The notes beneath the pieces are model-generated. The model was not told the DNA's origin, did not search any database, and was given only the letters and a program-made list of their open reading frames with translations. A stretch of 64,000 bases of DNA from Aequorivita soesokkakensis (GTDB lineage Bacteria; Bacteroidota; Bacteroidia; Flavobacteriales; Flavobacteriaceae). The stretch covers positions 1 to 64,000 of the forward strand of contig NZ_LXIE01000050.1 in assembly GCF_001641085.1 (NCBI RefSeq), given 5' to 3'. The position numbers and the translations under genes were made by a program. Below, in pieces: positions 34 to 47,420 of this stretch; position 1 is the stretch's first letter, and every line of letters starts with the position of its first letter.

Positions 34-2730
34 ATGAAAAATAAAAAATATCTAAAATTAAGCGGTCTTGAACCATTGATTATCACCCCCGAAAGCAATT
101 TCATAAACGTGGGAGAACGCACCAATGTGGCAGGTTCAAAGAAATTTCTTCGACTCATAAAAGAACGAAATTTTGAGGAAGCCCTTTCCGTTGCCCGCGA
201 ACAGGTGGAAAACGGCGCACAGATCATCGACGTAAATATGGACGACGGACTGATTGACGGGAAAGAGGCGATGGTGAAATTCTTGAACCTTGTGGTCGCC
301 GAGCCGGATATTTCCCGCGTTCCAATAATGATAGACAGCAGCAAGTGGGAAATAATCGAAGCTGGATTACAGGTTGTGCAGGGAAAATGTGTGGTAAATT
401 CCATTAGCTTAAAAGAAGGCGAAGCGGAATTTATCCATCACGCAAAACTCATAAAACGCTACGGAGCCGCAGTGATCGTGATGGCTTTTGATGAAACCGG
501 CCAAGCCGATAATTACGACAGAAGAATTGAAATTGCCAAACGGTCTTATAATATTTTGGTGAACCACGTGAAATTCGCGCCAGAGGATATTATTTTCGAT
601 TTAAACATATTTCCTGTGGCAACGGGAATGGATGAACACAGAAAAAATGCGATCGATTTTATTGAAGCTACGCGTTGGGTTCGTGAGAATTTGCCACACG
701 TTAGCGTAAGCGGTGGCGTAAGCAATGTTTCTTTCAGTTTCCGCGGAAATGATCCCGTTCGTGAGGCGATGCACTCCGTGTTTTTGTATCACGCCATCCA
801 AGCTGGAATGAATATGGGTATCGTAAATCCGGCAATGCTGGAGGTTTACGATGATATTCCAAGGGATTTGTTAGAGCGTGTTGAAGATGTAATGCTCGAC
901 CGTCGCGAAGATGCCACGGAACGTTTATTGGATTTTGCCGAAACCGTAAAAGGAACCACAAAGGAAAGTAAAGTTGATCTTTCGTGGCGAGAGGAGCCAC
1001 TGCAAAACCGCATTACAAGGGCATTGGTAAAAGGAATTGACGAATTTATTTTAGAGGATATTGAAGAAGCAAGGCAAAATGCTGACAAGCCAATTGAAGT
1101 AATTGAAGGTAATTTAATGATTGGAATGAACGTAGTCGGCGATCTTTTCGGAAGCGGGAAAATGTTTTTGCCACAAGTGGTAAAAAGCGCTCGTGTAATG
1201 AAAAAAGCTGTAGCGTATTTACTTCCATACATCGAAGATGAAAAACTAAAAAATCCTCAAATAAATGATTCAAAAAATGCTGGCCGGATTTTAATGGCAA
1301 CTGTAAAAGGTGATGTTCATGACATCGGCAAAAATATTGTCGGGGTTGTTTTGGCGTGTAATAATTATGAAATAATCGATTTGGGCGTGATGGTTCCGCC
1401 GGAAAAAATTATTGCTACAGCAAAAGAGGAAAACGTGGATGCCATTGGTTTGAGTGGTTTAATAACCCCTTCATTGGACGAAATGGTTTTTTTGGCGAAG
1501 GAAATGCAGCGGCAAAATTTTAAAGTTCCGTTGTTGATTGGCGGCGCAACCACGAGTCGGGCGCATACCGCGGTAAAAATTGATCCTGAGTACGAATGTG
1601 CCGTGGTGCACATAAACGATGCTTCGCGGGCAGTTACCGTTGTGGGCGATTTGCTGAAAAAGGAAACTTCGGCTTCGTATAAGGACAATTTGAAAAAGGA
1701 ATATGACACTTTCCGACAGGATTTTTTGAAGCGACAAAAGGTAAAAACCTATTTACCTATTTCCGAAGCGCGGAAAAACAGATTTCAAATTGACTGGAAT
1801 TCTTCAGAAATAGTGAAACCCAACAAACTGGGAGTCCAAGTTTTAAAGGATTTCGATTTAAATCTGTTGTTGGATTTCATGGATTGGACCCCGTTTTTCA
1901 GAAGTTGGGAACTGCACGGAAAGTATCCAAACATTTTAACAGATGAAATTGTGGGCGAACAAGCTTCGGAATTATTTGAGGATGCGAAAAAAATGCTTCA
2001 GAAATTAATTTCAGAAAAACTGTTGGAAGCGAGGGCTGTCCTTGGAATTTTTGAAGCAAATACTGTTAATGATGATGATATTTCTTTGGAAATCCCAAAT
2101 CCCAAATCCCAAATCCCAAATCCAGTATTCCGAACCCTTCGCCAACAATCCCAAAAGGCAAAAGGAAAACCAAATCTCGCCTTGGCAGATTTTATCGCTC
2201 CGAAAGAAACTGGAATTCAAGATTACATCGGCTGTTTCTGTGTAAGTACAGGTTTTGGAACTGCGGAATTGGCCGCAAAATATATTGCAGAACACGACGA
2301 TTATAACGCCATAATGGTGAAAGCGTTGGCAGACCGCTTGGCGGAAGCCTTTGCGGAATATCTTCACAAAGAAGTACGTACCAACTATTGGGGCTACGCT
2401 TCCGAGGAAAATCTTTCAAATGAAGACTTGATTTCCGAAAAATACAAGGGCATTCGTCCCGCGCCCGGCTATCCTGCCTGTCCAGATCATTTGGAGAAAC
2501 GAACCATTTGGGAAGTTTTAAAAGTTATGGAAAATATAGGCGTTGAATTGACCGAAAGTTTGGCAATGTGGCCGGCAGCTTCGGTTTCGGGCTATTATTT
2601 TGCAAACCCTGAAGCGCGCTATTTCGGACTTGGAAAAATTAAGGAAGATCAAGTGGAAGATTTCGCAAAGCGAAAAAATATGAATTTAGAAGAAGCCACG
2701 AATTGGCTGAAAACAAACCTTGCAGATTAG
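34..2730 (+). CDS. metH: Methionine synthase (cobalamin-dependent), C-terminal part of a split MetH
   Basis: Carries the methyl-tetrahydrofolate, cobalamin and reactivation modules of B12-dependent methionine synthase, which moves a methyl group from methyl-THF via cobalamin to homocysteine. Domain order: pterin-binding (about residues 20-285, starting [14 protein letters not shown]), cobalamin cap (about 315-395), B12-binding Rossmann domain with the DVHDIG motif (H429 would be the lower axial ligand), then the SAM-dependent activation domain with [10 protein letters not shown] near residue 808. The homocysteine-binding barrel is absent; in Bacteroidetes it is normally a separate gene just upstream, here outside the window. 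Odd: a heptamer repeat (AAATCCC, 2090-2123) inserts the 7-residue repeat IPNPKSQ at about residues 686-697 in the activation domain. The 33 bases before the start contain a 9-bp direct repeat (4-12 and 13-21). metF follows with no gap, so the two are surely co-transcribed. Confidence 0.97.
2090..2123. repeat. AAATCCC heptamer tandem repeat inside metH
   Basis: Four full copies of AAATCCC plus six bases of a fifth, within the coding sequence. Because three 7-mers make seven codons, it is read as a 7-residue peptide repeat. It sits in what is a short variable linker of the activation domain in relatives, so it probably does not inactivate the enzyme. Confidence 0.95.
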
Positions 2731-3687
2731 ATGAAAGTTACAGAACACATAAAAAACGGAAACGGAAAAACGCAATTTTCGTTTGAGATTTTACCGCCAT
2801 TAAAAGGGGAAAATATACATTCCATTTTTGAGAATATTGATCCGCTGATGGAGTTTAAACCACCATACATTAACGTAACCTATCATCGCGAGGAATATGT
2901 TTTTAAGGAATTGAAGGATGGTTTAATAGAGAAAAAAGTTGTTCGTAAGCGTCCTGGAACGGTGGGGATTTGCGCGGCAATTCAAAATAGATATGAAGTA
3001 GATGCCGTGCCGCACATTCTCTGCGGCGGTTTTACAAAGGAAGAAACTGAGAATTTTTTAATAGATCTTCAGTTTTTAGGAATTGATAACGTAATGGCCT
3101 TACGTGGTGATGCGGTAAAAAGCGAAACCTATTTCACGCCTGAAAAAAACGGACATAAATATGCTTGCGATCTTGTTTCGCAAATAAATGCTTTGAATAA
3201 AGGAACATATTTGGATGACGAACTTCAGCATACTTTCCCGACGGATTTTTGTGTGGGCGTGGCGGGTTATGCCGAAAAACATATGGAAGCGCCAAGCAGT
3301 GAAAGCGACATTCATTTCCTAAAAAAGAAAATTAAAAATGGCGCAGAATACATTGTAACACAAATGTTTTTTGACAATGAAAAATTCTTTCAGTTTGAAA
3401 AAAAATGCAGGGCAGAAGGCATTACCGTTCCAATTATTCCGGGGTTAAAACCCATTGCCGTAAAATCACATCTCAATTTAATTCCGCATAGATTTAAAGT
3501 TGATTTACCAGATTCGTTGGTGATGGAAGTGGTGAAAGCCAAGGATAATAAGGCTGTTCGGCAGATTGGGATTGATTGGTGCGTAAAGCAAAGTCAAGAA
3601 CTTGTAAAAGCTGGAGTTCCGTTTCTACATTATTACTCAATGGGAAAAAGTAGCAATATTAAGGAAATCGCTTCGCAGGTATTTTAA
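2731..3687 (+). CDS. metF: 5,10-methylenetetrahydrofolate reductase
   Basis: Reduces 5,10-methylene-THF to 5-methyl-THF, the methyl donor used by the MetH encoded immediately upstream. The 318-residue protein is a normal MetF length and shows the family landmarks: FSFEILPP near the N-terminus (catalytic Glu), the NVMALRGD segment near residue 120, and VTQMFFDN followed by VPIIPGLKPI. The ATG directly abuts the metH stop, indicating one transcript and probably translational coupling. A cytoplasmic FAD enzyme is expected. Confidence 0.97.
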   Translation: MKVTEHIKNGNGKTQFSFEILPPLKGENIHSIFENIDPLMEFKPPYINVTYHREEYVFKELKDGLIEKKVVRKRPGTVGICAAIQNRYEVDAVPHILCGGFTKEETENFLIDLQFLGIDNVMALRGDAVKSETYFTPEKNGHKYACDLVSQINALNKGTYLDDELQHTFPTDFCVGVAGYAEKHMEAPSSESDIHFLKKKIKNGAEYIVTQMFFDNEKFFQFEKKCRAEGITVPIIPGLKPIAVKSHLNLIPHRFKVDLPDSLVMEVVKAKDNKAVRQIGIDWCVKQSQELVKAGVPFLHYYSMGKSSNIKEIASQVF

Positions 3688-3707
3688 GATTGCTTTATTT
3701 TGCGGTA

Positions 3708-4799
3708 ATGTCCCGAATTGCGTTTTTGGTGTTTTTTCTCACAACTTCTTTTGTTTTTTCACAGGAAAAAAACAGAGACTTTTTCGTGGACGCCAATTAT
3801 TTCTACGGAACCATTCTTCGGCACAATAAGGATATTTCACATTTGGTGAAAGCCCATCCCGATGGTTTTATCGTTGGCTTTAACCGAAAAACTTACGGAG
3901 CCGAGCGATGGCAACAGGAATACAATTACCCCGATTGGGGTTTTTCATTTGTACATCAAAATGCAAATTATGATGTTTTGGGTGAAAATTATGGGCTGTA
4001 CGGGCATTTCAATTTTTACTTTTTAAAACGAAATCTTTTCTTCCGAATAGGGCAGGGTATTGCCTATAATACTAACCCTTTTGACTTTGAAACCAATTTC
4101 AAAAACAATGCTTACGGCAGCCATTTGTTGAGTTCAACTTATTTGATGCTGAATTACAACAAGCAAAATCTTTTCAAAAACTTTGGGGTTCAAGCGGGAA
4201 TTGCCTTGGTGCATTATTCCAACGGAAATTTTAAGGCGCCAAATTCGAGCACAAATGCCTTCACTTTAAATATTGGCGTGCAATATTCGTTGGCTGACGA
4301 GACTCAAGAATATATCTCCGATTCGCTTCCGAAGAAAATCGCAGAGCCCATAAAATACAACTTCGTGCTTCGAGGCGGGTTGAACGAAAGCGATTATTTA
4401 AATCTTGGGCAGCATCCGTTTTTTGTGGTTTCGGCCTTTGCGGACAAGCGGTTGAGCTATAAAAGTACCCTTCAGTTGGGTGCGGATTTTTTCTACTTGC
4501 CATTTCTGAAAAAGGAAATTGAATACCTTTCCATTGCTTTTCCAAATATGGGCGTGGAAGGCGATGAAGATTTTAAACGCGTCGGCATTTTTGCGGGCCA
4601 CGAATTGCACATTAACAAATTGGCGGTAGTTTCACAAGTAGGTTATTATGTTTATTATCCCTATGATTTTGAGGGAAGAACGTATTTTCGGGTAGGTTTG
4701 AAATATTATTTAACCGAAAAACTTTTCAGCGCAATCACTTTAAAATCGCACGGTGCGAAAGTGGAAGGCGTGGAATTTGGCGTGGGAATTAGAATATAG
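3708..4799 (+). CDS. PagL-like acyloxyacyl hydrolase / lipid A deacylase, copy 1
   Basis: Predicted outer-membrane beta-barrel of the lipid A 3-O-deacylase (PagL, acyloxyacyl hydrolase) type as found in Bacteroidetes. An ATG at 3708 is preferred over an in-frame TTG at 3690, giving 363 residues with a hydrophobic signal peptide ending near VFSQE. The HYSNGNFKAPN segment (H169, S171) matches the His-x-Ser catalytic motif of PagL; many alternating aromatic strands follow. It lies 20 bases after metF. The gene and its 3' neighbour are repeated as a pair just downstream (5583-7526). Family assignment is from sequence motifs; the substrate is inferred. Confidence 0.8.
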   Translation: MSRIAFLVFFLTTSFVFSQEKNRDFFVDANYFYGTILRHNKDISHLVKAHPDGFIVGFNRKTYGAERWQQEYNYPDWGFSFVHQNANYDVLGENYGLYGHFNFYFLKRNLFFRIGQGIAYNTNPFDFETNFKNNAYGSHLLSSTYLMLNYNKQNLFKNFGVQAGIALVHYSNGNFKAPNSSTNAFTLNIGVQYSLADETQEYISDSLPKKIAEPIKYNFVLRGGLNESDYLNLGQHPFFVVSAFADKRLSYKSTLQLGADFFYLPFLKKEIEYLSIAFPNMGVEGDEDFKRVGIFAGHELHINKLAVVSQVGYYVYYPYDFEGRTYFRVGLKYYLTEKLFSAITLKSHGAKVEGVEFGVGIRI

Positions 4800-4802
4800 A
4801 TT

Positions 4803-5555
4803 ATGAAGAAGTTATTTTTTGTCAGCTTGGTTTTTTTGTTGCTTTCATGCGATTCCGAAAATGGTTGGGATTGTGTGCAAGCTGCGGGAAGTTCGGTTTC
4901 CAAAGAATATTTTGTTTCAGATTTTACAAAAATCAGGATTGAGGATGACGTGACTTTACATTTGAAACAGGGCGATTCCACAAAGATAATTCTTGAAACG
5001 GGCGAAAACCTTTTAAGCGATATTTCCGTAAGTGTTGAAGGCGTAACATTAGTGGTGAAGGATCATAACAATTGCAATTTGGTGCGCGATTACGGAATTA
5101 CAAAAATATATGTAACCGTTCCAAACATTACTGAAATCAGAAACAGCTCGGCTTACGACGTTATTGGCGAAGGAGTTTTGCAATTTCCGAGACTCACTTT
5201 GGTGAGCAATAGTTCAGCTGGTCCAGAAACAATTAGAAAGAGTGGCGATTTTTATTTGAACATTATTTGCGAAGAATTCCGTGTAAATGCAAACGGCCAA
5301 AGTGTTTTTTATATAACTGGCACTGCTGAAAAAGCCAATCTAAGCTTCGCTGATGAAATGCCACGTTTTGATGGAATGGATTTTTTAATAAATGAACTCA
5401 CTGTTTTTCAAAGAAGTGCAAACAAAATGATTGTCAATCCACAGCAAAGTATCATCGGAAAAATCGTGGCAACGGGCGATATTATTAGTTATAACCGTCC
5501 GCCATTGGTGGATGTAAAAGAATTATTTACTGGCAGGCTATTATTTGAAGATTAG
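4803..5555 (+). CDS. GIN-domain (DUF2807) lipoprotein, copy 1
   Basis: A lipoprotein with a signal peptide ending in LLLSC (Cys16), followed by a region of short repeated beta strands typical of the GIN domain (DUF2807, 'putative auto-transporter adhesin head'), a right-handed beta-helix-like fold of unknown function common in Bacteroidetes. The start DSENGWDC and the segment NCNLVRDYGITK are shared closely with the protein at 6702-7526. It begins 3 bases after the PagL-like gene, so the two are very likely co-translated and may act together at the outer membrane. Function is not known. Confidence 0.8.
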   Translation: MKKLFFVSLVFLLLSCDSENGWDCVQAAGSSVSKEYFVSDFTKIRIEDDVTLHLKQGDSTKIILETGENLLSDISVSVEGVTLVVKDHNNCNLVRDYGITKIYVTVPNITEIRNSSAYDVIGEGVLQFPRLTLVSNSSAGPETIRKSGDFYLNIICEEFRVNANGQSVFYITGTAEKANLSFADEMPRFDGMDFLINELTVFQRSANKMIVNPQQSIIGKIVATGDIISYNRPPLVDVKELFTGRLLFED

Positions 5556-5582
5556 TTTATCTTTACCGGCGTTGAAAAAAAT

Positions 5583-6695: not shown

Positions 6696-6701
6696 TGCAA
6701 A

Positions 6702-8654: not shown

Positions 8655-9527
8655 ATGAGCCTAAAAGTAGCAATACAGGGAATTGAAAGTTCGTTCCACC
8701 ACCAAGCCGTTCAAAAACTTTTTCCCAATGAGGAAATTAATCTTTTGACTTGCGATTCTTTTGAAAAGGTAACGACCGCAGTAAATAATAGTAATGCTGA
8801 TTTTGGCGTGATTGCAATTGAAAATACTATCGTTGGCTCGATTTTGCCGAATTATGGGTTGATTGATGCAGGCAATTTTGAAATCTTGGCAGAAACCGTT
8901 TTAAATATTCAAATGTACGTGATGGCTTTGGAAAGTGAATCCATTCACGATATAAAAGAGATACATTCACATCCTGTGGCGCTGCTTCAGTGTCGGGATT
9001 ATTTGCAGAAATTTCCGCCGCAATTCAAGGTTATTGAAGGAAAAGACACCGCTTCCGAAGCAAAAAGAATCAAAAATCAAAACTTAACAGGCGTTGCTGC
9101 AATTGCTGGGAAACAAGTTGCAGAGAAATTCGGACTTAAAATTTTGGACAGTAATATCCAAGATATAAAGGAAAACCATACGCGCTTTGTACTTTTGGGC
9201 AAAAAAGAAAAGCAAAGTATTCGGCAAGCCGACAAAGCTTCTCTTAAATTTGTACTGGACCATAATGTTGGGAGTTTAGGAAATGTTCTGAGTCTTTTAA
9301 CGACTTTCAACATAAATTTAACCAAGATACAATCGCTGCCAATTGTCGGCAAACCTTGGCAGTATGCTTTTTTTGTCGATGTGGTTTTTGAGGAGGAGAA
9401 TTTCTTTTTTGAAGTGGTGGAAATGCTCAAAAAAACAGTAAAAGAATTAAAAATATTGGGTGTTTACAAACAAGATGAAACACATGCCCAAGCTCAATTT
9501 TCAAATGCAATTTTAAATGGAAAATAA
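8655..9527 (+). CDS. pheA: Prephenate dehydratase
   Basis: Converts prephenate to phenylpyruvate, the committed step to phenylalanine. The 290-residue protein has the periplasmic-binding-like catalytic lobes (GVIAIENTIVGSI around residues 55-67, NHTRFVLLG at about 178) followed by a C-terminal ACT domain (from about 195, LDHNVGSLGNVLSLL) that normally senses Phe for feedback inhibition. Unlike E. coli PheA it has no chorismate mutase domain; that activity is fused to the next gene product. Its end overlaps the start of the DAHP synthase gene by 11 bases. Transcription is probably controlled by the Phe-rich leader/terminator at 8509-8637. Many relatives have an aminotransferase and tyrA between these two genes; here they are absent. 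Confidence 0.95.
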   Translation: MSLKVAIQGIESSFHHQAVQKLFPNEEINLLTCDSFEKVTTAVNNSNADFGVIAIENTIVGSILPNYGLIDAGNFEILAETVLNIQMYVMALESESIHDIKEIHSHPVALLQCRDYLQKFPPQFKVIEGKDTASEAKRIKNQNLTGVAAIAGKQVAEKFGLKILDSNIQDIKENHTRFVLLGKKEKQSIRQADKASLKFVLDHNVGSLGNVLSLLTTFNINLTKIQSLPIVGKPWQYAFFVDVVFEEENFFFEVVEMLKKTVKELKILGVYKQDETHAQAQFSNAILNGK

Positions 9528-10599
9528 TAAAAATCTACGCAATTGGCTAAATAAAATGGAACTGGCACACCCAATTGTAATTGCGGGTCCGTGCAGTGCC
9601 GAAACGGAAGAACAAGTGCTGAAAATAGCACACCAACTAAAGGAAACCGATACAACCGTAATGCGTGCCGGAATCTGGAAACCCAGAACCCGTCCAGGAA
9701 ATTTTGAAGGCGTTGGTGCTTTGGGATTGAAGTGGCTTCAAAAAGCGAAACAGGAAACTGGTTTGATGACCGCGACCGAAGTTGCAAACGCAAACCACGT
9801 AGATTTGGCGTTGAAACACGATGTGGATATTCTTTGGGTTGGCGCGCGCACAACAGTTTCGCCTTTTATTGTTCAGGAAATAGCCGATGCTTTAAAGGGA
9901 ACCGATAAAATAGTTTTGATAAAAAACCCAGTGAATCCAGATTTAGCACTTTGGTTGGGAGCAGTGGAGCGTTTTTATGAAAGCGATGTAAAAAATCTGG
10001 GTGTAATTCACCGCGGATTTTCAACTTATGAAAAAACGCGTTACCGAAATAATCCGGAATGGCAGATACCGATTGACCTTCAAAATAAATTTCCAGATTT
10101 ACCTTTGATTTTGGATCCTTCGCATATTGCGGGACGTCGTGATATTATATTTGATTTATGTCAAACCGCCTTGGATCTAAATTATGACGGATTGATGGTA
10201 GAAACACATTTTGACCCAGATAACGCTTGGAGCGATGCCGCACAGCAAATTACACCAGCCGCTTTAAGGCAAATGACTATCGATTTGCGAATTCGGAAAC
10301 AGGAAGGCGATGCAGTTGAATTTAGAAATAAATTGAACACATTGCGTACAAAGATTGATGTTTTGGACCATCAGCTTATAGAATCATTGGGCAAAAGAAT
10401 GAAGATTGCAGATAGTATTGGAGCTTTAAAAAAGAAAAATAACGTGGCTATTCTTCAAACAAAAAGATGGAATGAGGTTTTAGGGAAAATGATTTTGGAA
10501 GGCGAAGAAAACCAACTGAGTGAGGAATTTATTTTGAAAATTTTTAAAGCCATTCATCAAGAATCCATCAATCACCAAAAAAAGGTTATTAATGAATAA
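9517..10599 (+). CDS. Bifunctional 3-deoxy-7-phosphoheptulonate synthase / chorismate mutase type II
   Basis: N-terminal part (about residues 1-260) is a DAHP synthase of the KDO8P-like class: IVIAGPCSAETEEQ, RAGIWKPRTRPGNFEG, and ILDPSHIAGRRD. It condenses PEP with erythrose-4-phosphate to open the shikimate pathway. The C-terminal about 95 residues are an AroQ-type chorismate mutase (RTKIDVLDHQLIESLGKRM). The fusion supplies prephenate for PheA, whose gene overlaps it. The last three codons and the stop lie within the first copies of an AATGAAT heptamer array. 360 residues is the normal length for this fusion in flavobacteria. Confidence 0.95.
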   Translation: MENNKNLRNWLNKMELAHPIVIAGPCSAETEEQVLKIAHQLKETDTTVMRAGIWKPRTRPGNFEGVGALGLKWLQKAKQETGLMTATEVANANHVDLALKHDVDILWVGARTTVSPFIVQEIADALKGTDKIVLIKNPVNPDLALWLGAVERFYESDVKNLGVIHRGFSTYEKTRYRNNPEWQIPIDLQNKFPDLPLILDPSHIAGRRDIIFDLCQTALDLNYDGLMVETHFDPDNAWSDAAQQITPAALRQMTIDLRIRKQEGDAVEFRNKLNTLRTKIDVLDHQLIESLGKRMKIADSIGALKKKNNVAILQTKRWNEVLGKMILEGEENQLSEEFILKIFKAIHQESINHQKKVINE

Positions 10600-10649
10600 T
10601 GAATAATGAATAATGAATAATGAATAATGAATAATGAATAATGAATAAT
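10591..10649. repeat. AATGAAT heptamer tandem array, 8.4 copies
   Basis: Eight perfect copies of AATGAAT from 10591 to 10646 plus AAT. The first copy encodes the last residues of the DAHP synthase and the stop codon (10597-10599) spans copies 1 and 2. AT-rich; no stable secondary structure. Confidence 0.97.
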
Positions 10650-10673
10650 ATTGTAATATAGATTGAATATTTT

Positions 10674-10746
10674 TGAAACCTGAAACCTGAAACCTGAAAC
10701 CTGAAACCTGAAACCTGAAACCTGAAACCTGAAACCTGAAACCTGA
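10674..10746. repeat. TGAAACC heptamer tandem array, 10.4 copies, abutting the rsgA start
   Basis: Ten perfect copies of TGAAACC (10674-10743) plus TGA, directly followed by the rsgA ATG at 10747. The array therefore occupies the entire ribosome-binding region. Separated by only 24 bases from the unrelated AATGAAT array. The perfect copies suggest recent expansion or copy-number instability. Confidence 0.97.
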
Positions 10747-11694
10747 ATGAAAGGCCTTGTCTATAAATCTACCGGAAGTTGGTACAGCGTAAAAGCCGAA
10801 AGCGGAACTTTTTACGATTGCCGCATAAAAGGCAAGTTCCGTATGGATGGAATAAAAAGCACAAATCCTGTTGCGGTAGGCGATCACGTAGATTTTGATA
10901 TCGAAAAAAAAGGCGATGAAACCGTTGGGGTAATCAAACATATTGACGAGCGCGAAAACTACATCATCCGAAAATCTGTAAATCTTTCAAAGCAAACCCA
11001 TATAATTGCGGCTAATATTGATGTTGCTTTTTTGTTGATTACCCTAAACAATCCACCAACCTTTACAACTTTTATAGATCGGTTTTTAGTTACTGCGGAA
11101 GCATATCACATTAAAGCGGTTTTGCTTTTCAATAAAATTGACACTTACAACGAAGACGAATTATTAGAGATAAAATTCCTTGCGGCACTGTATCGAAAAA
11201 TTGGGTACGAATGCATCGGAATTTCAGCAATCACAGGAAAAAATATTGATAAAGTAAAAGCTTTGATGCAGGACAAAGTAACTATGTTTTCTGGCCATAG
11301 TGGCGTGGGCAAATCTACTTTGATAAATGCTTTAGAGCCGGGCTTGAGTTTAAAAACCTCAAATATTTCTGAACAACATTTGCAGGGACAACACACAACT
11401 ACTTTTGCCGAAATGTTTGATTTATCCTTTGGCGGACAAATAATAGACACTCCCGGAATTAAAGGTTTTGGAGTGGTTGAAATGGATAAAGAAGAATTGG
11501 GTGATTATTTCCCTGAGTTTTTTGAGCTGAAGGAAAACTGCAAATTCAACAACTGCCTTCATTTGGAAGAGCCACATTGTGCGGTGAAAGAAGCCTTGGA
11601 AAATGAAGAAGTAGCGTGGTCCCGATATAAAAGTTATTTGCAGATTTTAGAAGGCGAAGAGGATCATTTCAGAAAAGATATTTATGAGAAGTAA
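10747..11694 (+). CDS. rsgA: Ribosome small subunit-dependent GTPase RsgA
   Basis: Circularly permuted GTPase that helps mature the 30S subunit. The 315-residue protein has an N-terminal OB fold (about 1-75), then G4 LFNKID, G1 SGHSGVGKSTLINAL, G3 DTPG in permuted order, and a C-terminal zinc motif (CKFNNCLHLEEPHC) that binds Zn through Cys-His-Cys residues. The start MKGLVYKSTGSWY is typical of the family and begins exactly at the end of a TGAAACC heptamer array. Same strand and context as pheA/DAHP synthase, an arrangement common in this family of bacteria. Confidence 0.96.
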   Translation: MKGLVYKSTGSWYSVKAESGTFYDCRIKGKFRMDGIKSTNPVAVGDHVDFDIEKKGDETVGVIKHIDERENYIIRKSVNLSKQTHIIAANIDVAFLLITLNNPPTFTTFIDRFLVTAEAYHIKAVLLFNKIDTYNEDELLEIKFLAALYRKIGYECIGISAITGKNIDKVKALMQDKVTMFSGHSGVGKSTLINALEPGLSLKTSNISEQHLQGQHTTTFAEMFDLSFGGQIIDTPGIKGFGVVEMDKEELGDYFPEFFELKENCKFNNCLHLEEPHCAVKEALENEEVAWSRYKSYLQILEGEEDHFRKDIYEK

Positions 11695-11729
11695 AATTCC
11701 AAATCTCAAGCACCAAATACCAAAATTCC
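11694..11729. repeat. Degenerate AAATNCC heptamer repeat after rsgA
   Basis: Four consecutive 7-mers AAATTCC, AAATCTC, AAGCACC, AAATACC (11694-11721) and an 8-base AAAATTCC. The first unit shares the last base of the rsgA stop codon. Closely related in sequence to the AAATCCC array inside metH. Confidence 0.75.
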
Positions 11730-11737
11730 ACTAATCG

Positions 11738-11773
11738 AACTATCCAACAATCTAAAAATCCAACGATCCAAAA
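11738..11773. repeat. Degenerate octamer repeat (AANNATCC) abutting the dtd start
   Basis: AACTATCC, AACAATCT, AAAAATCC, AACGATCC in phase from 11738 to 11769, then AAAA and the dtd ATG at 11774. Period 8 here, in contrast to the neighbouring period-7 repeats. Confidence 0.75.
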
Positions 11774-12226
11774 ATGCGCGTTTTAATCCAAAGAGTAAAA
11801 AAAGCATCCGTAATTATTGAAGAAAAAGTTTTTTCCGAGATAAATCAAGGGTTGCTGATTTTATTGGGAATTGAAGCGGAAGATACCCAAGAAGACATCA
11901 ACTGGTTAGCTGGAAAAATTGCCCGTTTGCGGATTTTTTCTGATGAAAATGATGCGATGAATCTTTCGGTGCAGGACATAGACGGCGAATGTTTGGTGGT
12001 TAGTCAATTTACACTTCATGCAAACACAAAAAAGGGAAATCGTCCTTCTTTTATAAACGCCGCAAAGCCAGAAATTGCTATCCCACTTTATGAAAATTTT
12101 GTGTTACAACTTGAAAGGGAAACCAATAAAAAAGTTGAGACCGGTAGCTTCGGAGCAATGATGGATGTAGCTTTAATTAATGATGGGCCGGTTACTATTT
12201 GGATTGATTCGAAAAATAAGGAATAA
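11774..12226 (+). CDS. dtd: D-aminoacyl-tRNA deacylase
   Basis: Hydrolyses D-amino acids mischarged on tRNA. The 150-residue length and the two catalytic motifs of the DTD fold are present: SQFTLHA near residue 78 and [10 protein letters not shown] near residue 136. The start [13 protein letters not shown] is the typical N-terminus. It is separated from rsgA by 79 bases made mostly of degenerate 7- and 8-bp repeats. Cytoplasmic housekeeping enzyme; no unusual residues seen. Confidence 0.96.
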
Positions 12227-25066: not shown

Positions 25067-25829
25067 ACTGGAAGACAACATCCGTGAAAAACTGGAGACG
25101 AGGGAACTGAAACCTTCTGCGGACGCATGGAAAAAACTGGAAGCAAAATTGGATGCCGAGCAGCCCAAAAAGAAAAGTAATGTTTTGTATTACGTGGCAG
25201 CAAGCTTTGTTGGGATTCTCATTTTGGCCTCTGTTCTTTTTAGCAGAAATAATTCAGAAGTGGATAATCAAATAGTGGAAGAAAAAATTCAGCAAAACCA
25301 AACCAATTCGCAACCCGAAATTATTCCCAATAAAACTCTTTCTGAAGAAATTGTTTCCGAGGAAAGAAATTCTGAAAAGATAAATTCTGAAGAAAAACAA
25401 AAACCGAATACGAGGGAAGTAAAAGTGATTCCGCCGAAAAAATCGACAATTGATAAAAAAATGGAAAGCACGGAAGCGCTTGCAAATGTTTCAAACGAAA
25501 AAATAAAAAAGCCTGTAATTAAAGAGGATTTAATCATTTCCGAAGAAGACAAACTCATCAATAATAAGGTTGATGAAGTGGTTGCCTCAGTAAAAAAACT
25601 ACAGGAAGACAATGCGGAAATATCGACGACGGAAGTGGAAAGGTTGTTAAATAATGCACGTCGCGATATTCAAACCCAGCGAATTCTAAACAGCCCAAAA
25701 GTAGATGCAACGGCCTTGTTGCAAGATGTGGAATGGGAGCTTGATAAAAGTTTCCGCGATAAGGTTTTCGACGCTCTTGGCGAAGGTTTTCAAAAAGTGC
25801 GGACAGCTGTTTCAGAAAGAAACGATTAG
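25053..25829 (+). CDS. Putative anti-sigma factor / single-pass membrane protein
   Basis: A 258-residue protein with a short cytoplasmic N-terminus (about 1-43, charged, DNIREKLETRELKPSADAWKKLEAKLD), one transmembrane helix (about 45-62, VLYYVAASFVGILILASVLF), and a long, highly charged Glu/Lys-rich C-terminal region with helical character. The layout and the 14-base overlap with the sigma factor gene suggest an anti-sigma factor; no zinc-binding HxxxCxxC motif is present. Not recognised as a named family; function is inferred from position. Confidence 0.7.
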   Translation: MASYKLEDNIREKLETRELKPSADAWKKLEAKLDAEQPKKKSNVLYYVAASFVGILILASVLFSRNNSEVDNQIVEEKIQQNQTNSQPEIIPNKTLSEEIVSEERNSEKINSEEKQKPNTREVKVIPPKKSTIDKKMESTEALANVSNEKIKKPVIKEDLIISEEDKLINNKVDEVVASVKKLQEDNAEISTTEVERLLNNARRDIQTQRILNSPKVDATALLQDVEWELDKSFRDKVFDALGEGFQKVRTAVSERND

Positions 25830-32669: not shown

Positions 32670-32677
32670 TGTTTAAA

Positions 32678-32705
32678 AGTTAAGAATTAGGAATTAAGAA
32701 TTATG
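32678..32705. repeat. Degenerate AATTANG heptamer repeat before engB
   Basis: AGTTAAG, AATTAGG, AATTAAG, AATTATG in register at 32678-32705. In the direction of transcription (minus) the array leads into the engB start region. Confidence 0.8.
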
Positions 32706-38906: not shown

Positions 38907-38909
38907 CCA

Positions 38910-40142: not shown

Positions 40143-40143
40143 A

Positions 40144-41481: not shown

Positions 41482-41485
41482 TTTC

Positions 41486-41506
41486 AATAAACAATAAACA
41501 ATAAAC
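41486..41506. repeat. AATAAAC heptamer tandem repeat before ftsW
   Basis: Three perfect copies of AATAAAC filling most of the 31-bp gap between murD and the GTG start of ftsW. The same unit occurs twice at 25851-25864. Confidence 0.9.
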
Positions 41507-41512
41507 GGAAAA

Positions 41513-42703
41513 GTGAAAAACATTTTTCAATACATACAAGGCGATAGAGCAATTTGGGGAGTAGTGGGGCTTTTGGCGTTGTTTTCCTTTTTGCCGGTTT
41601 ACAGCGCGAGTAGTAATCTTGCGTATTTGTATGGCGATGGAAGTACACTGCCTTATCTATTTAAACATTTCGCCCATTTAGTATTGGGGTTTGCCATTTT
41701 GTATGGCGTTCACAAAATTCCGTATAACTACTTTCGTGGACTTTCAATTATTGCTATTCCGGTAGTTGTATTGCTTTTGATAATTACAATGGCCGAAGGA
41801 ACCACTATTGAAGGCGCCAACGCGAGCAGGTGGATTCGTGTGCCTTTTGTTGGGGTTACATTCCAAACTTCAACTTTGGCTGGAGTGGTTTTGATGACTT
41901 ATGTAGCGCGTTATTTATCGCGAATAAAAGATAAAGCGGTTACTTTTAAAGAAACATTGTTGCCGCTTTGGGTTCCGGTATTTATTGTACTTGCTTTAAT
42001 ACTTCCGGCAAATTTTTCTACCACGGCAATCTTCTTTTTAATGATCGTATTATTGGTGTTTATCGGCGGGTATCCATTGCGATATTTAGGAATTATTTTA
42101 GGCGCAGGCCTAATTTTTCTCACCCTTTTTGTGATTTCAGCAAAAGCGTTTCCGGGAGTTTTCCCGAACCGTGTAGATACTTGGATAAGTAGGGTTGAAA
42201 ATTTCAGTGATGATAAAGATACTGAAGCAGACTATCAAATAGAAAAAGCGAAAATAGCAATTGCCTCGGGTGGTGTAACAGGTCTTGGACCGGGCAAAAG
42301 TGTCCAAAAAAACTTTTTGCCGCAGTCGTCGTCAGATTTTATTTATGCAATAATTGTAGAAGAATTTGGTCTTTTTGGTGGTCTGTTTTTAATGGTGCTG
42401 TATTTATTTCTATTATTCCGAATTGTAATAGTTGCACATAAATCAACTTCCGTTTTTGGAAAACTGCTCGTCATTGGCGTGGGCTTGCCAATTATTTTTA
42501 GAGCGATGATAAATATGGCTGTTGCCGTGGAATTGTTTCCTGTAACGGGTCAAAACCTACCATTAATAAGTAGTGGAGGAACTTCAATTTGGATGACCTG
42601 TTTGGCCTTGGGAATGGTTTTGAGCGTAAGCGCAAAAAGAGAAATAGTTGCAAAAGAAGAAAAGGAAGAAAACCCATTGGATATTTTAAGCGAAGCGATT
42701 TAG
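41513..42703 (+). CDS. ftsW: Septal peptidoglycan glycosyltransferase FtsW (SEDS family)
   Basis: Polymerises lipid II at the septum together with FtsI. 396 residues, about ten transmembrane helices; SEDS landmarks GDRAIWGVVGLLALFSFLPVYSAS (in two parts), ANASRWIRVP, PQSSSDFIYAIIVEEFG and ISSGGTSIWMTCLALG. Starts with GTG. Follows murD after a short heptamer repeat. Confidence 0.95.
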   Translation: MKNIFQYIQGDRAIWGVVGLLALFSFLPVYSASSNLAYLYGDGSTLPYLFKHFAHLVLGFAILYGVHKIPYNYFRGLSIIAIPVVVLLLIITMAEGTTIEGANASRWIRVPFVGVTFQTSTLAGVVLMTYVARYLSRIKDKAVTFKETLLPLWVPVFIVLALILPANFSTTAIFFLMIVLLVFIGGYPLRYLGIILGAGLIFLTLFVISAKAFPGVFPNRVDTWISRVENFSDDKDTEADYQIEKAKIAIASGGVTGLGPGKSVQKNFLPQSSSDFIYAIIVEEFGLFGGLFLMVLYLFLLFRIVIVAHKSTSVFGKLLVIGVGLPIIFRAMINMAVAVELFPVTGQNLPLISSGGTSIWMTCLALGMVLSVSAKREIVAKEEKEENPLDILSEAI

Positions 42704-42737
42704 AAATACGAAATACAAAATTGAATAAATAGAAATC
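42703..42737. repeat. Degenerate GAAATAC heptamer repeat between ftsW and murG
   Basis: GAAATAC, GAAATAC, AAAATTG, AATAAAT, AGAAATC in phase; the first unit begins on the last base of the ftsW stop and the last ends two bases before the murG TTG start at 42740. Confidence 0.7.
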
Positions 42738-42739
42738 TT

Positions 42740-43834
42740 TTGAAACACAAATTCATCATAAGCGGCGGCGGCACCGGAGGTCATATTTACCCGGCGGTTG
42801 CCATTGCGAACGAGTTAAAAATCCGTTTCCCCTATGCTGAATTTTTGTTCGTGGGCGCTGAAGATAGAATGGAAATGGAGAAAGTGCCGCAAGCGGGCTA
42901 TAAAATAAAAGGTCTTTGGATTTCTGGTCTGCAACGAAGTTTATCACTTCAAAATTTAGCTTTTCCCTTAAAACTCGTTTCCAGTTTGCGAAAATCCCAA
43001 AAAATCCTGAAAAATTTTAAACCAGATATTGCAATAGGAACGGGAGGTTATGCAAGCGCTCCGTTATTGCGAATGGCTGCATTGCGTAATATTCCCTGCT
43101 TAATCCAAGAACAGAACAGTCATGCCGGAATCACAAACAAATGGCTGAGTGGGAAAGTTCAAAAAATATGTGTGGCTTATGAAGGGATGGAGAAATTCTT
43201 CCCATCGGAAAAAATAATACTTACGGGAAATCCAGTTCGGCAGGATTTGCTGGATATTTCTTCCAAAAAAGAAGAAGCTATTTCTTTCTTCAATTTAAAA
43301 AATGAAAAGAAAACATTGTTGGTTTTGGGCGGAAGCTTGGGCGCAAGACGCATCAACCAATTAATTGAGAAATCATTGCCATTTTTTGAAAAGAACGATT
43401 TACAACTAATCTGGCAATGCGGAAAATATTACGAAGAAACCTATAAAAACAAAGGAAGCGAAACAGTGCAAGTCCACGCTTTTTTAAACCGAATGGATTT
43501 GGCGTATGCTGCGGCAGATTTCATTATTTCAAGAGCGGGAGCACTTTCTGTTTCTGAATTGTGTTTGGTTGGAAAGCCTGTTGTTTTCATTCCATCACCA
43601 AATGTTGCCGAAGATCACCAAACAAAAAATGCAAAAGCAATTTCTGAAAAAAATGCTGCGTTGCTGATTAAAGAAAACGATTTGGATTCCAGCTTTGAAA
43701 GTGAATTTTCAGAATTGATTACTTCCGAAGAAAAACAAAAAACCCTTTCGGAAAGCATAAAAAAACTGGCGAAACCAAATGCCACAAAAGAAATTGTGGA
43801 GGAGATTGAGAAATTATTAGAAAAAAGTCGATGA
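42740..43834 (+). CDS. murG: UDP-GlcNAc:lipid I N-acetylglucosaminyltransferase MurG
   Basis: Converts lipid I to lipid II at the inner face of the membrane. 364 residues, GT-B fold; [17 protein letters not shown] (N-terminal G-loop), [24 protein letters not shown] and [18 protein letters not shown] plus [11 protein letters not shown]. The start is TTG. The last codons and stop lie in the first copy of a 16-bp tandem repeat. Confidence 0.95.
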
Positions 43835-43895
43835 GTTGAGAAGTCGATGAGTTGAGAAGAAGACTCAACTCCTAAACTTATCGACTCATCGACTA
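43826..43895. repeat. 16-bp direct repeat with inverted partner between murG and murC
   Basis: AGTCGATGAGTTGAGA at 43826-43841 and again at 43842-43857; the first copy contains the murG stop. Further on, CTCAACT (43864-43870) and ACTCATCGACT (43884-43894 region) are reverse complements of parts of the unit, so the RNA can fold into alternative hairpins between murG and murC. No T tract, so not a simple terminator. Confidence 0.8.
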
Positions 43896-43911
43896 AATTA
43901 AACCTGAAACA

Positions 43912-45267
43912 TTGAATAACCTAAAAGACATACAAACTTTCTACTTCGTCGGCATCGGCGGCATTGGGATGAGTGCGCTTGCGCGTTATTTTAAAATGCA
44001 GGGGAAAGCGGTTTTTGGGTATGACAAAACTTCAACAGATTTGACGGAGGAATTGGTTGCCGAAGGAATTTCGGTGACTTTCATTGATGAAATTTCTGAA
44101 CTTCAAAAAGAAGTCATTTCAAAAGAAAACGTTTTGGTGGTTTATACCCCCGCAATTCCGAAGCATAACAAGATTTTAAATTATTTCTTTTCCGAAGAAT
44201 TTTATATCGTGAAACGCGCCGAGCTTTTGGGTGAAGTTTCAAAAAACACCCTTTGCCTTGCCGTTGCCGGAACGCACGGCAAGACAACAACTTCAGCAAT
44301 TTTGGGGCATTTATTGGCAGAATGCAATATGCCCGTAACAGCATTTTTGGGTGGAATTGCAGAGAATTATAATTCAAATTTTATCTATAAAGGCAGTGAA
44401 ATAACAGTTGTTGAAGCCGATGAATTTGATCGTTCGTTTCTCCAACTCCGTCCAGATATTGCTTGCGTTACATCAATGGACGCGGACCATTTGGATATTT
44501 ATGGCGATGCCGCTGAAATAGAAACCGCCTTTAGAACATTTGCGAAATTGGTTGAAAAAGAGGAAAATGTTTTCATCAAAAAGAACCTTCCTCTTGACGG
44601 AATGACTGTTGCGGTAGAAGAAACCGCCGATTACGAAGCGCAAAACGTAAAAATAAAGGGCGGTGCCTATCTTTTCGATTTAAAGACTCCGAATGGAACT
44701 TTGGAAAATTTAACTTTCCATCTTCCCGGGCACCATAATCTTACAAATGCCATCATGGCTTTGGGCATGGCAATTTTAGCAGGCTCCCCAACCGATTGCC
44801 TGCCCAAAGCATTGGCAACTTTTAAAGGCGTGAAGCGTCGTTTTTCGTATAAAATTAAATCTGAAAATTTGGTTTTGATAGACGATTACGCACATCATCC
44901 CACAGAAATTGATGCTTTATTTCAAGCAGTGGATGAAATGTATCCGAACGATCACAAACAGATTGTTTTTCAGCCGCATCTTTTTAGCAGAACACGTGAT
45001 TTTGCAGTAGGTTTTGCAAAAAGCCTTTCCCAATTTGATGAAGTTGTGTTGCTTGATATTTATCCCGCACGGGAGGAACCTATTGAAGGAATTACTTCAG
45101 AATGGCTTTTAAATCAAGTTGTTTCAGAAAAGAAAAGATTGGTTTTTAAATCTGCTTTGCCAGAAGTTTTATTGAAATCGAAATGTAGAATAAAATTGCT
45201 TGTAGGCGCTGGAGACATTGGTGCCGAGGTAAATAAACTAACCCAAAAATTGAAAGATGAAGCGTAG
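43912..45267 (+). CDS. murC: UDP-N-acetylmuramate:L-alanine ligase MurC
   Basis: Adds L-alanine to UDP-MurNAc, the first stem-peptide step. 451 residues; VGIGGIGMSALARYF (N-terminal), ATP loop AVAGTHGKTTTSAIL, SMDADHLDIYGD, PGHHNLTNAIMAL, DDYAHHPTEI and FQPHLFSRTRDF. The start is TTG (family N-terminus begins just before the G-loop). Overlaps ftsQ by 11 bases. Confidence 0.95.
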   Translation: MNNLKDIQTFYFVGIGGIGMSALARYFKMQGKAVFGYDKTSTDLTEELVAEGISVTFIDEISELQKEVISKENVLVVYTPAIPKHNKILNYFFSEEFYIVKRAELLGEVSKNTLCLAVAGTHGKTTTSAILGHLLAECNMPVTAFLGGIAENYNSNFIYKGSEITVVEADEFDRSFLQLRPDIACVTSMDADHLDIYGDAAEIETAFRTFAKLVEKEENVFIKKNLPLDGMTVAVEETADYEAQNVKIKGGAYLFDLKTPNGTLENLTFHLPGHHNLTNAIMALGMAILAGSPTDCLPKALATFKGVKRRFSYKIKSENLVLIDDYAHHPTEIDALFQAVDEMYPNDHKQIVFQPHLFSRTRDFAVGFAKSLSQFDEVVLLDIYPAREEPIEGITSEWLLNQVVSEKKRLVFKSALPEVLLKSKCRIKLLVGAGDIGAEVNKLTQKLKDEA

Positions 45268-45973
45268 TTTAGAAATCATAAAATTTATTTTTCTGCTTGG
45301 ATTAATGGCGCTTCTTTTCAGCTTCACCAAAAAGCGAAATGATGCCCGAAAACTCACGAAACTGGATGTGGAATTTGTGGATGAAAACAGCCCATTCATC
45401 ACCTACAATTCAGTTAATAAATTGTTGATACAAAATCATGGGAAGGTTACGAGCATAGATAAAGAAACTTTAGTTTTGAAGAAGATGGAGCAAAGACTGC
45501 GTGAAAACCCTATGGTTCGTGATGCTCAGGTCTATGTATCGGTTGACGGTACTTTGGGGGCAAAAATTGAACAGCGCAAACCTATAGGTAGGGTGTCTGC
45601 TTCGCCGGATTATTACTTGGATGCAGACGGAAAAAAGATGCCGTTGTCCAATGTTTATTCAGCGAGGGTACCCATAATTACGGGAACTTCAAAGAATAAT
45701 TTCACCGAAGTTACCCCATTGTTGCTTAAAATTGAGAAAGATGAATTTATGAGAAGCAGCGTAGTAGGTTTAAACCGAAAAACAGATGGTGACATCGAGT
45801 TGGAGCTTCGAAAAATAAATTTTAAAGTTCTTTTCGGGAAGCCGGAAAATATTGAAAAGAAGTTTCAAAATTTTAAAGCGTTTTATAAAAAAACAAAACA
45901 GGACAGTACGCTGTATGGGTACAATATGGTAAACCTGAAATTTGACAATCAGGTAATCGCCACAAAAAAGTAA
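45257..45973 (+). CDS. ftsQ: Cell division protein FtsQ
   Basis: Bitopic divisome scaffold. 238 residues with a transmembrane helix (about 9-25, IKFIFLLGLMALLFSFT) and a POTRA/FtsQ-like periplasmic region (VNKLLIQNHG, VLKKMEQRLRENPMVRDAQVYVSVDGTLGAKI split, INFKVLFGKPENIEKKFQNF). Divergent from E. coli FtsQ but placed exactly between murC and ftsA. Confidence 0.9.
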   Translation: MKRSLEIIKFIFLLGLMALLFSFTKKRNDARKLTKLDVEFVDENSPFITYNSVNKLLIQNHGKVTSIDKETLVLKKMEQRLRENPMVRDAQVYVSVDGTLGAKIEQRKPIGRVSASPDYYLDADGKKMPLSNVYSARVPIITGTSKNNFTEVTPLLLKIEKDEFMRSSVVGLNRKTDGDIELELRKINFKVLFGKPENIEKKFQNFKAFYKKTKQDSTLYGYNMVNLKFDNQVIATKK

Positions 45974-45977
45974 GGCC

Positions 45978-47348
45978 ATGGAAAACGAAAATATTGCTGT
46001 AGGATTGGATATTGGGACTACCAAAATTGTTGCTATGATTGGTAGAAAAAATGATTACGGCAAAATGGAAGTATTGGGAATTGGAAAAGCGAAAAGCCTT
46101 GGCGTGCACCGTGGCGTCGTAAACAATATTACCCAAACCATTCAATCTATTCAACAGGCGGTGCAGGATGCAGAAACTTCTTCAGGAATGAAGATTAAAG
46201 AAGTGGTTGTAGGTATTGCGGGGCAGCACATTCGCAGCCTTCAACACAGCGATTATATTACCCGCCCGAATGGCGAGGATGTTATTAGTGAAGCCGATAT
46301 TGACAGGCTTTGCAACCAAGTTCACAAGTTGGTGATGCTTCCCGGGGAAGAGATATTGCACGTATTGCCACAGGATTTTAAGGTTGATGGGCAGGCAGAA
46401 ATAAAAGAACCCATCGGAATGTACGGTGCGCGTTTGGAAGCTAATTTCCACGTTGTTGTGGGGCAGGTTTCTTCTATCAGAAATGTGGGTAGATGTATTA
46501 AAAGTGCGGGTTTGGAACTTTCAGCAATAACCTTGGAGCCATTGGCTTCGGCAAAGGCTGTTTTGAGCCAAGAAGAGAAAGAGGCTGGTGTTGCCTTGAT
46601 TGACATAGGAGGTGGAACGACGGATTTGGCAATTTTTAAAGATGGAATCATACGTCATACGGCAGTAATTCCTTTCGGTGGAAATGTTATTACGGAAGAC
46701 ATAAAAGAAGGTTGCTCAATAATTGAAAAGCAGGCAGAATTGCTGAAAATAAAATTTGGCTCTGCTTGGCCTGGGGAAAATAAAGACAATGAAATTGTTT
46801 CAATTCCCGGTCTGCGCGGAAGGGAACCGAAGGAAATCAGCTTAAAAAACCTTTCAAAAATAATCCATGCACGTGTTATCGAAATTATCGAGCAGGTGTA
46901 TATGGAAATCAAAAATTACGGACACGAAGACCAAAAAAAGAAACTTATTGCGGGAATAGTACTTACAGGGGGTGGAGCCCAGCTTCAGCATATAAAACAA
47001 TTGGTTGAATACATTACTGGAATGGACACCCGTATTGGTTATCCAAACGAGCATTTGGCAGGCGATAGCGATGCTGAAACTACCAGCCCAATGTACGCAA
47101 CCGCAGTAGGTTTGGTGCTGAATAGTTTGGAAAGCAAAGAAAAATCTTCTTTGATGAAACGTTTTTCGCACGAAGATACTGCTCAAACTGAAGAAGCTGC
47201 ATCGGATACAACGCAAGCAGAAACTGAGCTAGAAACGGAAACAGAAAAGAAAGACAAAAAAAGCAAAGAAAAAGAATCAAAGACTTCAAAAAAGTTTTTT
47301 GATAAATGGGCTGAAAAATTCAAAGAGTTTTTGGATAACGCCGAGTAA
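45978..47348 (+). CDS. ftsA: Cell division protein FtsA
   Basis: Actin-like ATPase that anchors FtsZ to the membrane. 456 residues; VGLDIGTTKIVAMIGRK (phosphate 1), IDIGGGTTDLAIF (phosphate 2), GIVLTGGGAQL (adenosine), and a Glu/Lys-rich linker of about 45 residues (EETETEKKDKK-like) ending in an amphipathic helix KKFFDKWAEKFKEFLDNAE that would bind the membrane. Starts 4 bases after ftsQ. Confidence 0.95.
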   Translation: MENENIAVGLDIGTTKIVAMIGRKNDYGKMEVLGIGKAKSLGVHRGVVNNITQTIQSIQQAVQDAETSSGMKIKEVVVGIAGQHIRSLQHSDYITRPNGEDVISEADIDRLCNQVHKLVMLPGEEILHVLPQDFKVDGQAEIKEPIGMYGARLEANFHVVVGQVSSIRNVGRCIKSAGLELSAITLEPLASAKAVLSQEEKEAGVALIDIGGGTTDLAIFKDGIIRHTAVIPFGGNVITEDIKEGCSIIEKQAELLKIKFGSAWPGENKDNEIVSIPGLRGREPKEISLKNLSKIIHARVIEIIEQVYMEIKNYGHEDQKKKLIAGIVLTGGGAQLQHIKQLVEYITGMDTRIGYPNEHLAGDSDAETTSPMYATAVGLVLNSLESKEKSSLMKRFSHEDTAQTEEAASDTTQAETELETETEKKDKKSKEKESKTSKKFFDKWAEKFKEFLDNAE

Positions 47349-47353
47349 AAAGT

Positions 47354-47420
47354 GTTCAGTATGCAGTAACAGTACGCAGTAAAAATTAAAAATAAAAAAT
47401 TGCAATAAAAAATATAAAAT
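47354..47420. repeat. Degenerate period-7 repeat abutting the ftsZ start
   Basis: GTTCAGT, ATGCAGT, (AACAGT), ACGCAGT, AAAAATT, AAAAATA, AAAAATT, GCAATAA, AAAATAT in near-perfect 7-base phase, ending at the ftsZ ATG (47421). The CAGT words resemble those at 24383-24433. Confidence 0.65.

Follow-up and report, generated by a model that had tools for sequence, protein, structure and literature searches.

The first 64,000 bp of contig C50 of Aequorivita soesokkakensis (C50:1-64000 of G000, a 3.19-Mb genome in 51 contigs), hereafter called the window, contain short tandem arrays at many gene boundaries. From one array to the next the unit usually changes, whereas the repeat period of seven nucleotides does not. 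The analyses described below, in which G-numbers denote the Aequorivita genomes compared, reveal that period-7 arrays are a real, strong and genome-wide feature. They are probably microsatellite-like arrays that arise and grow when strands slip during copying, most readily by 7 nt at a time, and that are subsequently subject to decay and to a filter that determines which of them are retained.

A first-pass annotation of the window had listed eleven ranges with period-7 repeats. We scored each range at lags 4-16 and compared the value at lag 7 with those obtained after shuffling the segment 500 times with its dinucleotide composition preserved. The repeats were recovered with P values of 0.000-0.006 at ten of the eleven loci; the signal was weak at the remaining one (11694-11721, P=0.022), which borders an 8-mer array, as Tandem Repeats Finder (TRF) called periods 8, 16 and 24 right after it (11720-11775). 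Autocorrelation of the noncoding DNA of the window gave z=9.2 at lag 7, with lags 21 (z=4.6) and 14 (z=4.3) as runners-up, and lag 7 still reached z=6.1 once the array pair at 10586-10750 was removed. For a second sample of 310 kb, drawn from contig starts, which are themselves array-rich, the lag-7 values were z=9.0 overall, 10.1 in gaps of up to 200 bp and 1.2 in longer gaps; lags 2 and 3 were raised too (z=4.7 and 4.8). Thus, lag 7 exceeds other lags in noncoding DNA, where the lack of such an excess would have spoken against the initial proposal. Period-1 runs in the window were fewer than in shuffled sequence (2 versus 24).

Next, we counted arrays by period in our main genome sample of about 0.76 Mb, which consists of the whole window plus contig-start stretches minus the first 1 kb of each (62.9 kb noncoding and 658 kb coding), using a score of at least 10 as threshold. 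The noncoding DNA contained no arrays of periods 3-5, one of period 6, 48 of period 7 and nine of period 8, the second commonest short period; the counts for periods 9, 10, 11, 14 and 21 were 2, 4, 3, 20 and 24, respectively. The shuffle expectation at period 7 was 1.0 and, together with the z of 9.0 above, this over-representation of a 7-nt unit against a composition-preserving null is that of a heptanucleotide simple sequence repeat. The coding DNA held eight period-7 arrays, showing that they are mainly intergenic. At a looser cut-off of 8, an array was present in 60 of 457 gaps. The initial claim that arrays fill most co-directional gaps of 25-150 bp was too strong, since they do so in 8 of 17 such gaps in the window and in 23 of 201 across the genome sample, which contains the window. 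Of about 102 contig ends, 38 were tested, and nine of these carried a period-7 array within 60 bp of the end, with none in the 60 bp further in; in the same terminal 60 bp, periods 5 and 6 were absent and periods 8 and 9 occurred once each. Arrays longer than the reads probably break short-read assemblies, and long arrays are therefore under-counted.

The units are diverse within G000: three copies of TGAAACC, for instance, occur in only one array of this genome, and TAACTGA forms two 5-copy arrays among many other units. The observation that units differ between loci therefore stands, yet some are found repeatedly across Aequorivita: of 28 genomes, 18 have TACTGAN and 15 have two copies of TAACTGA. 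To analyze variation within arrays, we used the 96 usable arrays among 247 distinct ones. Unit variants fell at the same position in 34 pairs, compared with 28.8+-4.9 expected (P=0.18), which fits random decay. Since the variation is random over the unit positions, imperfect arrays are best seen as old arrays. A fixed 5-nt core combined with two free positions, which the appearance of several arrays suggested, was also considered; a minimum-spanning-tree test on the same 96 of 247 arrays gave no significant excess.

We then examined where the arrays lie, using G000 and the other Aequorivita samples, with 104 arrays altogether. As several tests were performed on overlapping samples, each P value for placement and strand is nominal. 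Co-directional gaps contained 86 arrays in 764 gaps (44 in 412 for ++ and 42 in 352 for --) and convergent gaps 14 in 148; in divergent gaps arrays were rare (4 in 193). Expressed as gaps that contain an array, the numbers for divergent and co-directional gaps were 3 of 83 and 32 of 305 in G000, and 1 of 110 and 38 of 459 in the other Aequorivita. The suggestion that arrays often begin on the upstream stop codon was borne out: this was the case in 23 of 58 co-directional gaps of up to 300 bp, compared with 12.3+-2.5 for random placement (P=0.0004), and was seen in both halves of the data (10 of 25 in G000, P=0.013; 13 of 33 in the other Aequorivita, P=0.003). The companion claim that arrays end at the next start codon was not, as 17 of the same 58 gaps showed this arrangement and 16.2+-2.7 are expected by chance. 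The mechanism initially proposed, slippage in 7-nt steps possibly combined with selection on the ribosome-binding region, survives in part: it is the step of 7 that matters, not the unit, while the ribosome-binding side is not supported, arrays being anchored at stops and showing no excess at starts.

The arrays are also biased with respect to the strand. The sense-strand unit contains a stop codon in 48 of 68 arrays, against a background of 49.7% (P=0.0006), and the antisense unit in 32 of 68 (background 50.0%). Again, both halves show the sense-strand bias (21 of 30 in G000, P=0.028; 27 of 38 in the other Aequorivita, P=0.009). The bias is clearest in arrays located away from a stop codon (34 of 45, P=0.0005; 14 of 23, P=0.30, in arrays that start at one), and it is therefore more than a copied stop codon. 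RNA of six sense units also folds more weakly than the background of array-free gaps (-1.83 compared with -3.82 kcal/mol, P=0.0025). Finally, GG is present in three of the 68 sense units, against 13-15% of background 7-mers, and GGG in none; a description of the units as lacking GG was dropped because of these three.

In silico comparison of orthologous gaps revealed that both lengths and units differ among relatives, where identical repeats in distant relatives would have pointed to ordinary conserved sequence, and that copy numbers differ by whole units between species. In the murD-ftsW gap, inspection by eye showed species-specific units (CAATAAA, CCAGAAA, CAACAGA, GGAACTA and CAATTAA) and, in some species, a bare gap of 13-17 bp. 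The ftsW-murG gap contains, also by eye, two AAATACG copies in G000, two in G008, five in G019 and 14 in G014; a similar 25-nt flank is present in three of these four carriers and a shorter one in G008, and G012 has a similar flank without an AAATACG array. The ftsL-ftsI gap of G008 contains 19 copies of ACAACCA. In 16 of 27 genomes the stop codon upstream of rsgA is followed by a short gap starting with AAAAGTTTTG, and in G000 the gap is 147 bp long and consists mostly of two arrays. A degenerate 8-mer array in the rsgA-dtd gap is common to G000, G007, G014 and G011 (by eye). Within the metH-like open reading frame (ORF), a linker harbours a period-7 array in 12 of the 16 loci with a covering match, window included (four further loci gave no match); six are of the AAATCCC type and six of the AATTCAG type. 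At three of the remaining loci the linker is made of different sequence, and at one the signal is weak (P=0.02).

Some features of these gaps were noted in passing. The AAAAGTTTTG gap (AAAAGTTTTGCAACTTTG in many genomes; e.g., L257, L258 and L259) looks promoter-like and is absent from the window, which has arrays there instead. Degenerate 8-bp ATCCAACA-type arrays extend to the dtd start in several species (window 11720-11775; loci L247-L273). The metH-like linker, which runs from ..ANTVNDDDI to FRTLRQQ.. (window 2060-2140, L036, L042, L033, L079, L037 and L031), tolerates insertions, and in some species it holds in-frame sequence that is not heptameric, PLTPKGG.. or CQSELVED.., which we take to be typical dispersed repeats. 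A palindromic repeat resembling repetitive extragenic palindromic sequences, GTAGAGACGCAC-N4-GTGCGTCT, is present in ftsW-flanking gaps of G022, G023 and G009 (3 of 351 loci; L223 1405-1428 and 2694-2717, L229 1433-1456 and 1472-1495, L238 1472-1495), and in G023 and G009 it lies near GAACAAA-type heptamers.

Outside G000, array density varies. Three further genomes are dense (G002, G026 and G007 together, 27 arrays in 30.8 kb noncoding DNA), and the single-contig genomes G005, G022, G009 and G007, with 10-15 kb noncoding DNA each, contain two, four, six and nine arrays, respectively. Arrays are sparser in G010 plus G027 (four in 33.7 kb) and in the rsgA neighbourhoods of 18 other Aequorivita loci (five in 26.3 kb noncoding). 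The rsgA neighbourhoods of other Flavobacteriaceae held five arrays in 101.8 kb (shuffle expectation 0.7), with period 6 also giving four, and other Bacteroidota families one in 30.9 kb from 16 genomes, that is, the 20 requested minus four with less than 2 kb. A 50-kb stretch of Escherichia coli K-12 yielded no period-7 array in 4.3 kb noncoding DNA. Among 149 Flavobacteriaceae genomes, 60 contain four copies of TGAANNN, and so do 56 of 148 from Bacteroidota. In the 149 family genomes, the TGAA core occurs at period 8 in eight and at period 6 in 42, and a hand count of the reversed core AAGT gave 63, 12 and 4 genomes for periods 7, 8 and 6, respectively. As the reversed core, which should escape the tendency of coding sequence towards GAA at period 6, gives only four there, we attribute the period-6 counts for TGAA to repeats in coding DNA. 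Arrays of this kind are thus widespread but unevenly distributed, and only part of Aequorivita is shown to be rich in them.

That intergenic DNA can be rich in heptamers is well established for bacteria, with examples from Xanthomonas, cyanobacteria and Beggiatoaceae. According to MacGregor 2015 (PMC4679880), TAACTGA direct repeats occur in marine Beggiatoaceae, cyanobacteria and five Bacteroidetes. Gramella forsetii and Aequorivita sublithincola (two sets) are described there as carrying TAACTGA arrays along with further heptamer repeats, heptamer assemblages are reported in Elizabethkingia, and two Cyanothece strains are said to differ by "mostly indels in 7 nt increments"; for TAACTGA, that study proposed horizontal spread and a role in translational regulation. 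The initial statement that nothing like this had been described in flavobacteria is therefore incorrect, and no flavobacterial account beyond MacGregor 2015 was found in the open literature, to which our search was confined. Like the TAACTGA repeats in that text (PMC4679880), which are strain-specific there, the Aequorivita arrays have 7-nt units and are mostly intergenic, and TAACTGA itself is among their recurrent units; G022 has two TAACTGA sets. Unlike the main genome of that study, in which a single unit prevails and few related heptamers occur, the constant in Aequorivita is the period and TAACTGA is one of many units; it does not predominate in G000. Nor do the arrays lie a few nucleotides upstream of start codons more often than chance predicts, as the start-codon counts above show, although a phased pattern is present at ftsI.

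Rehm 2015 (PMC4692102) deals with quadruplex-forming, G-rich heptamers (GGGAATC and GGGGA(C/T)T) in Xanthomonas and Nostoc, and states that heptameric repeats are over-represented in many bacterial genomes and that detailed literature on them is lacking. Those repeats resemble the Aequorivita arrays in their imperfect units, their mostly intergenic location and their large length variation between close species; in contrast to that single G-rich unit family, the Aequorivita units are GG-poor and fold weakly. Heptamer-derived satellites are mentioned in PMC6749651. Mrazek 2007, as cited in PMC4679880 and PMC4692102, described long simple sequence repeats, with units of 5-11 nt, among which heptanucleotides are reported to be commonest in most genomes. 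The same work is credited (via PMC4679880) with the suggestion that slippage stems from a polymerase contact spanning about 7 nt, and in these papers the explanation of the preference for seven in longer-unit bacterial repeats rests on this suggestion. The citing texts mention neither a case from Bacteroidota nor any analysis of strand, stop codons or orthologous gaps for these repeats. As far as the searched literature goes, the unit-independence of period 7, the sense-strand stop bias and the turnover of units at orthologous sites are new.

Contingency loci for phase variation are tandem repeats with a changeable copy number. Unlike such loci, which concern surface genes, the arrays in the window adjoin housekeeping genes (penicillin-binding protein, ftsW, rsgA and metH-like).

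To address how the arrays arise, loss of mismatch repair was considered. A match to mutS1 was present in all 28 genomes (27 over the cut-off and one split), and such a loss is therefore not a likely cause; it was rejected on these matches together with the lack of noncoding arrays of periods 3-5. Mismatch repair has an indel size limit, and this limit alone does not explain the missing periods 5 and 6. The split case, G014, has two separate mutS1 matches (G014:C15:663792-666354), possibly a split gene, and it is also the genome that carries the 14-copy AAATACG array.

The constant step, the free choice of unit, the whole-unit differences between orthologues, the random decay and the scarcity in divergent gaps fit slippage in 7-nt steps followed by selection. 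The event would be replicative or repair slippage, with a step of 7 nt and a minor second step of 8 nt, taken with little regard to the sequence copied. Purifying selection would keep arrays out of promoters and reading frames, and the sense-strand bias may reflect selection on the transcript between cistrons, which would favour unstructured RNA with stops in three frames; in a unit of length 3n+1, one stop codon would yield stops in all three frames. Units vary by place while the period stays fixed in one genus, which separates step length from sequence, so that the question "why seven" becomes testable. In addition, the sense-strand bias in stops and structure suggests how the spacer DNA of operons is made and filtered in these bacteria, which rely little on Shine-Dalgarno sites.

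Several points weigh against slippage as the origin. The indel spectrum among congeners that are 82-91% identical shows no clear peak at 7 nt. For the closest pair (94-97%), two of the seven noncoding indels of at least 4 nt are 21 nt long and lie in 7-mer arrays, and none is 7 nt long. Our copy-number comparison is one between species and not between strains of one species, and the 7-nt mutation event itself was unobserved. A tree of three proteins scatters the four AAATACG carriers, and the occurrence of AAATACG arrays in scattered branches requires homoplasy, loss or gene exchange. Furthermore, slippage theory offers no reason for 7 over 5 or 6. Related genomes share arrays by descent, so that counts are not fully independent, and genes were called by longest ORF, which leaves start positions rough and weakens the negative start-codon test.

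A bolder form of the slippage explanation, which we regard as unlikely, holds that a replication or repair activity enhanced in Aequorivita stutters in 7-nt steps on almost any template. It would prefer the zone at and after stop codons and would write unstructured spacers with stops in three frames faster than selection removes them. Intergenic DNA would then be generated irrespective of the template sequence, in steps whose length is dictated by a polymerase footprint.

Alternatively, the arrays may be sets of binding sites, with tandem 7-nt sites near starts being selected by a regulator or an RNA-binding protein; for TAACTGA, MacGregor 2015 (PMC4679880) suggested a cold-shock protein, whose footprint is about 7 nt. 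Our first impression was that a phased ACTGA pattern precedes ftsI, in the ftsL-ftsI gap, in most of the genus. Of the 28 genomes, 26 were scored, as two were missed by the script; a pair of phased AYYGA cores precedes the start in 13 of the 26, and lag 7 was significant (P<=0.05) in 10. These cores, the recurrence of TACTGAN and TAACTGA, the sense-strand bias and the weak folding all speak for binding sites. However, units are otherwise diverse, their variation is not restricted by position as it would be in iterons, the arrays are not anchored to starts, and they are also present in convergent gaps and inside the metH-like ORF. We consider this explanation rather improbable.

Selection might instead have favoured the arrays as stop cassettes, in which one stop codon per 7-mer closes all frames after a gene. 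All three sense frames are stopped in 32 of 68 arrays, compared with 11.0+-2.8 in background of equal length, per-unit stops are enriched in the sense and not in the antisense strand, and arrays tend to be positioned at the stop codon. However, the other 36 arrays leave at least one frame open, and antisense closure of every frame, with 21 of 68, is also above background. Periods 5, 10 and 11 would serve equally well, yet they are rare (0, 4 and 3 arrays), and the arrays in convergent gaps and in the metH-like ORF need another reason. Such selection would at best explain retention and not origin, and as a full account it is quite improbable.

Pre-made arrays might also have spread by transposition, conversion or horizontal transfer. 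The presence of AAATACG at one site in scattered lineages points in this direction, as do the other inserted sequence at the metH-like site in some species and the palindromic repeat beside heptamers in the ftsW-murG gap of some species. However, units mostly differ by place, with the single array of three or more TGAAACC copies in G000 as an example, and we hold spread of this kind to be very improbable. Chance, composition or an assembly artefact, for which AT-rich noncoding DNA in a draft assembly might be blamed, is almost certainly not the explanation given the shuffle controls, the arrays in the single-contig genomes G005, G007, G009 and G022, and their absence from the E. coli stretch.

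The arrays of the window are listed in Table 1. The genes next to them are ordinary ones, judged by their Pfam families: DAHP synthase-chorismate mutase, rsgA, dtd, polyprenyl synthetase, sigma factor, ftsL, penicillin-binding protein, murD and ftsW. The gene names are our reading of these families, by which the penicillin-binding protein gene is called ftsI, and "metH-like" for ORF 34-2730 is a putative label taken from the first-pass annotation. The RsgA protein encoded in the window is 85-97% identical to other Aequorivita RsgA proteins, with one exception at 81%.

Table 1. Heptamer-type arrays in the window (positions in the 64,000-bp stretch; score, lag-7 score, which for the rsgA-dtd array refers to 11694-11721).
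Array	Position	Strand	Context	Called by	Score
(AAAAATA)n-like	22..50	+	near contig start; window begins at contig base 1	TRF	
(AAATCCC)4.9	2090..2123	+	in metH-like ORF 34-2730, variable linker DDDI..FRTLRQQ	TRF	27
(TAATGAA)8.6	10590..10649	+	from last codons of DAHP synthase-like ORF 9517-10599 across its stop	TRF	53
(TGAAACC)10.6	10674..10747	+	reaching into rsgA start	TRF	67
degenerate; weak period 7 (11694-11721), then period-8 ATCCAACA-type units	11694..11775	+	rsgA-dtd gap, to dtd start	TRF	6
TACTGCG/TACTGAA	24399..24433	+	gap between polyprenyl synthetase gene and sigma factor gene	TRF	10
CAATTTT/CAATAAA	25838..25872	+	directly 3' of stop at 25829; downstream start uncertain, longest ORF overlaps array	TRF	10
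TTAAGAA-type	32673..32705	-	between two - strand ORFs	TRF	12
CTGACAA/CAGACAA/CTGATAA	35418..35445	+	ends at ftsI (penicillin-binding protein) start		10
(CAATAAA)3	41485..41506	+	murD-ftsW gap	TRF	15
AAATACG, 2 units, second imperfect	42703..42737	+	3' of ftsW stop		9
CAGTANN units, then AAAAATA-type array	47354..47420	+	upstream of ORF at 47421	TRF	11

The window also contains a repeat of a different kind at 50124-50357, between ORFs 49533-49982 and 50380-50823. It consists of 2.4 copies of a 99-bp unit, of which the two full copies are 99% identical, with a 29-bp inverted repeat.

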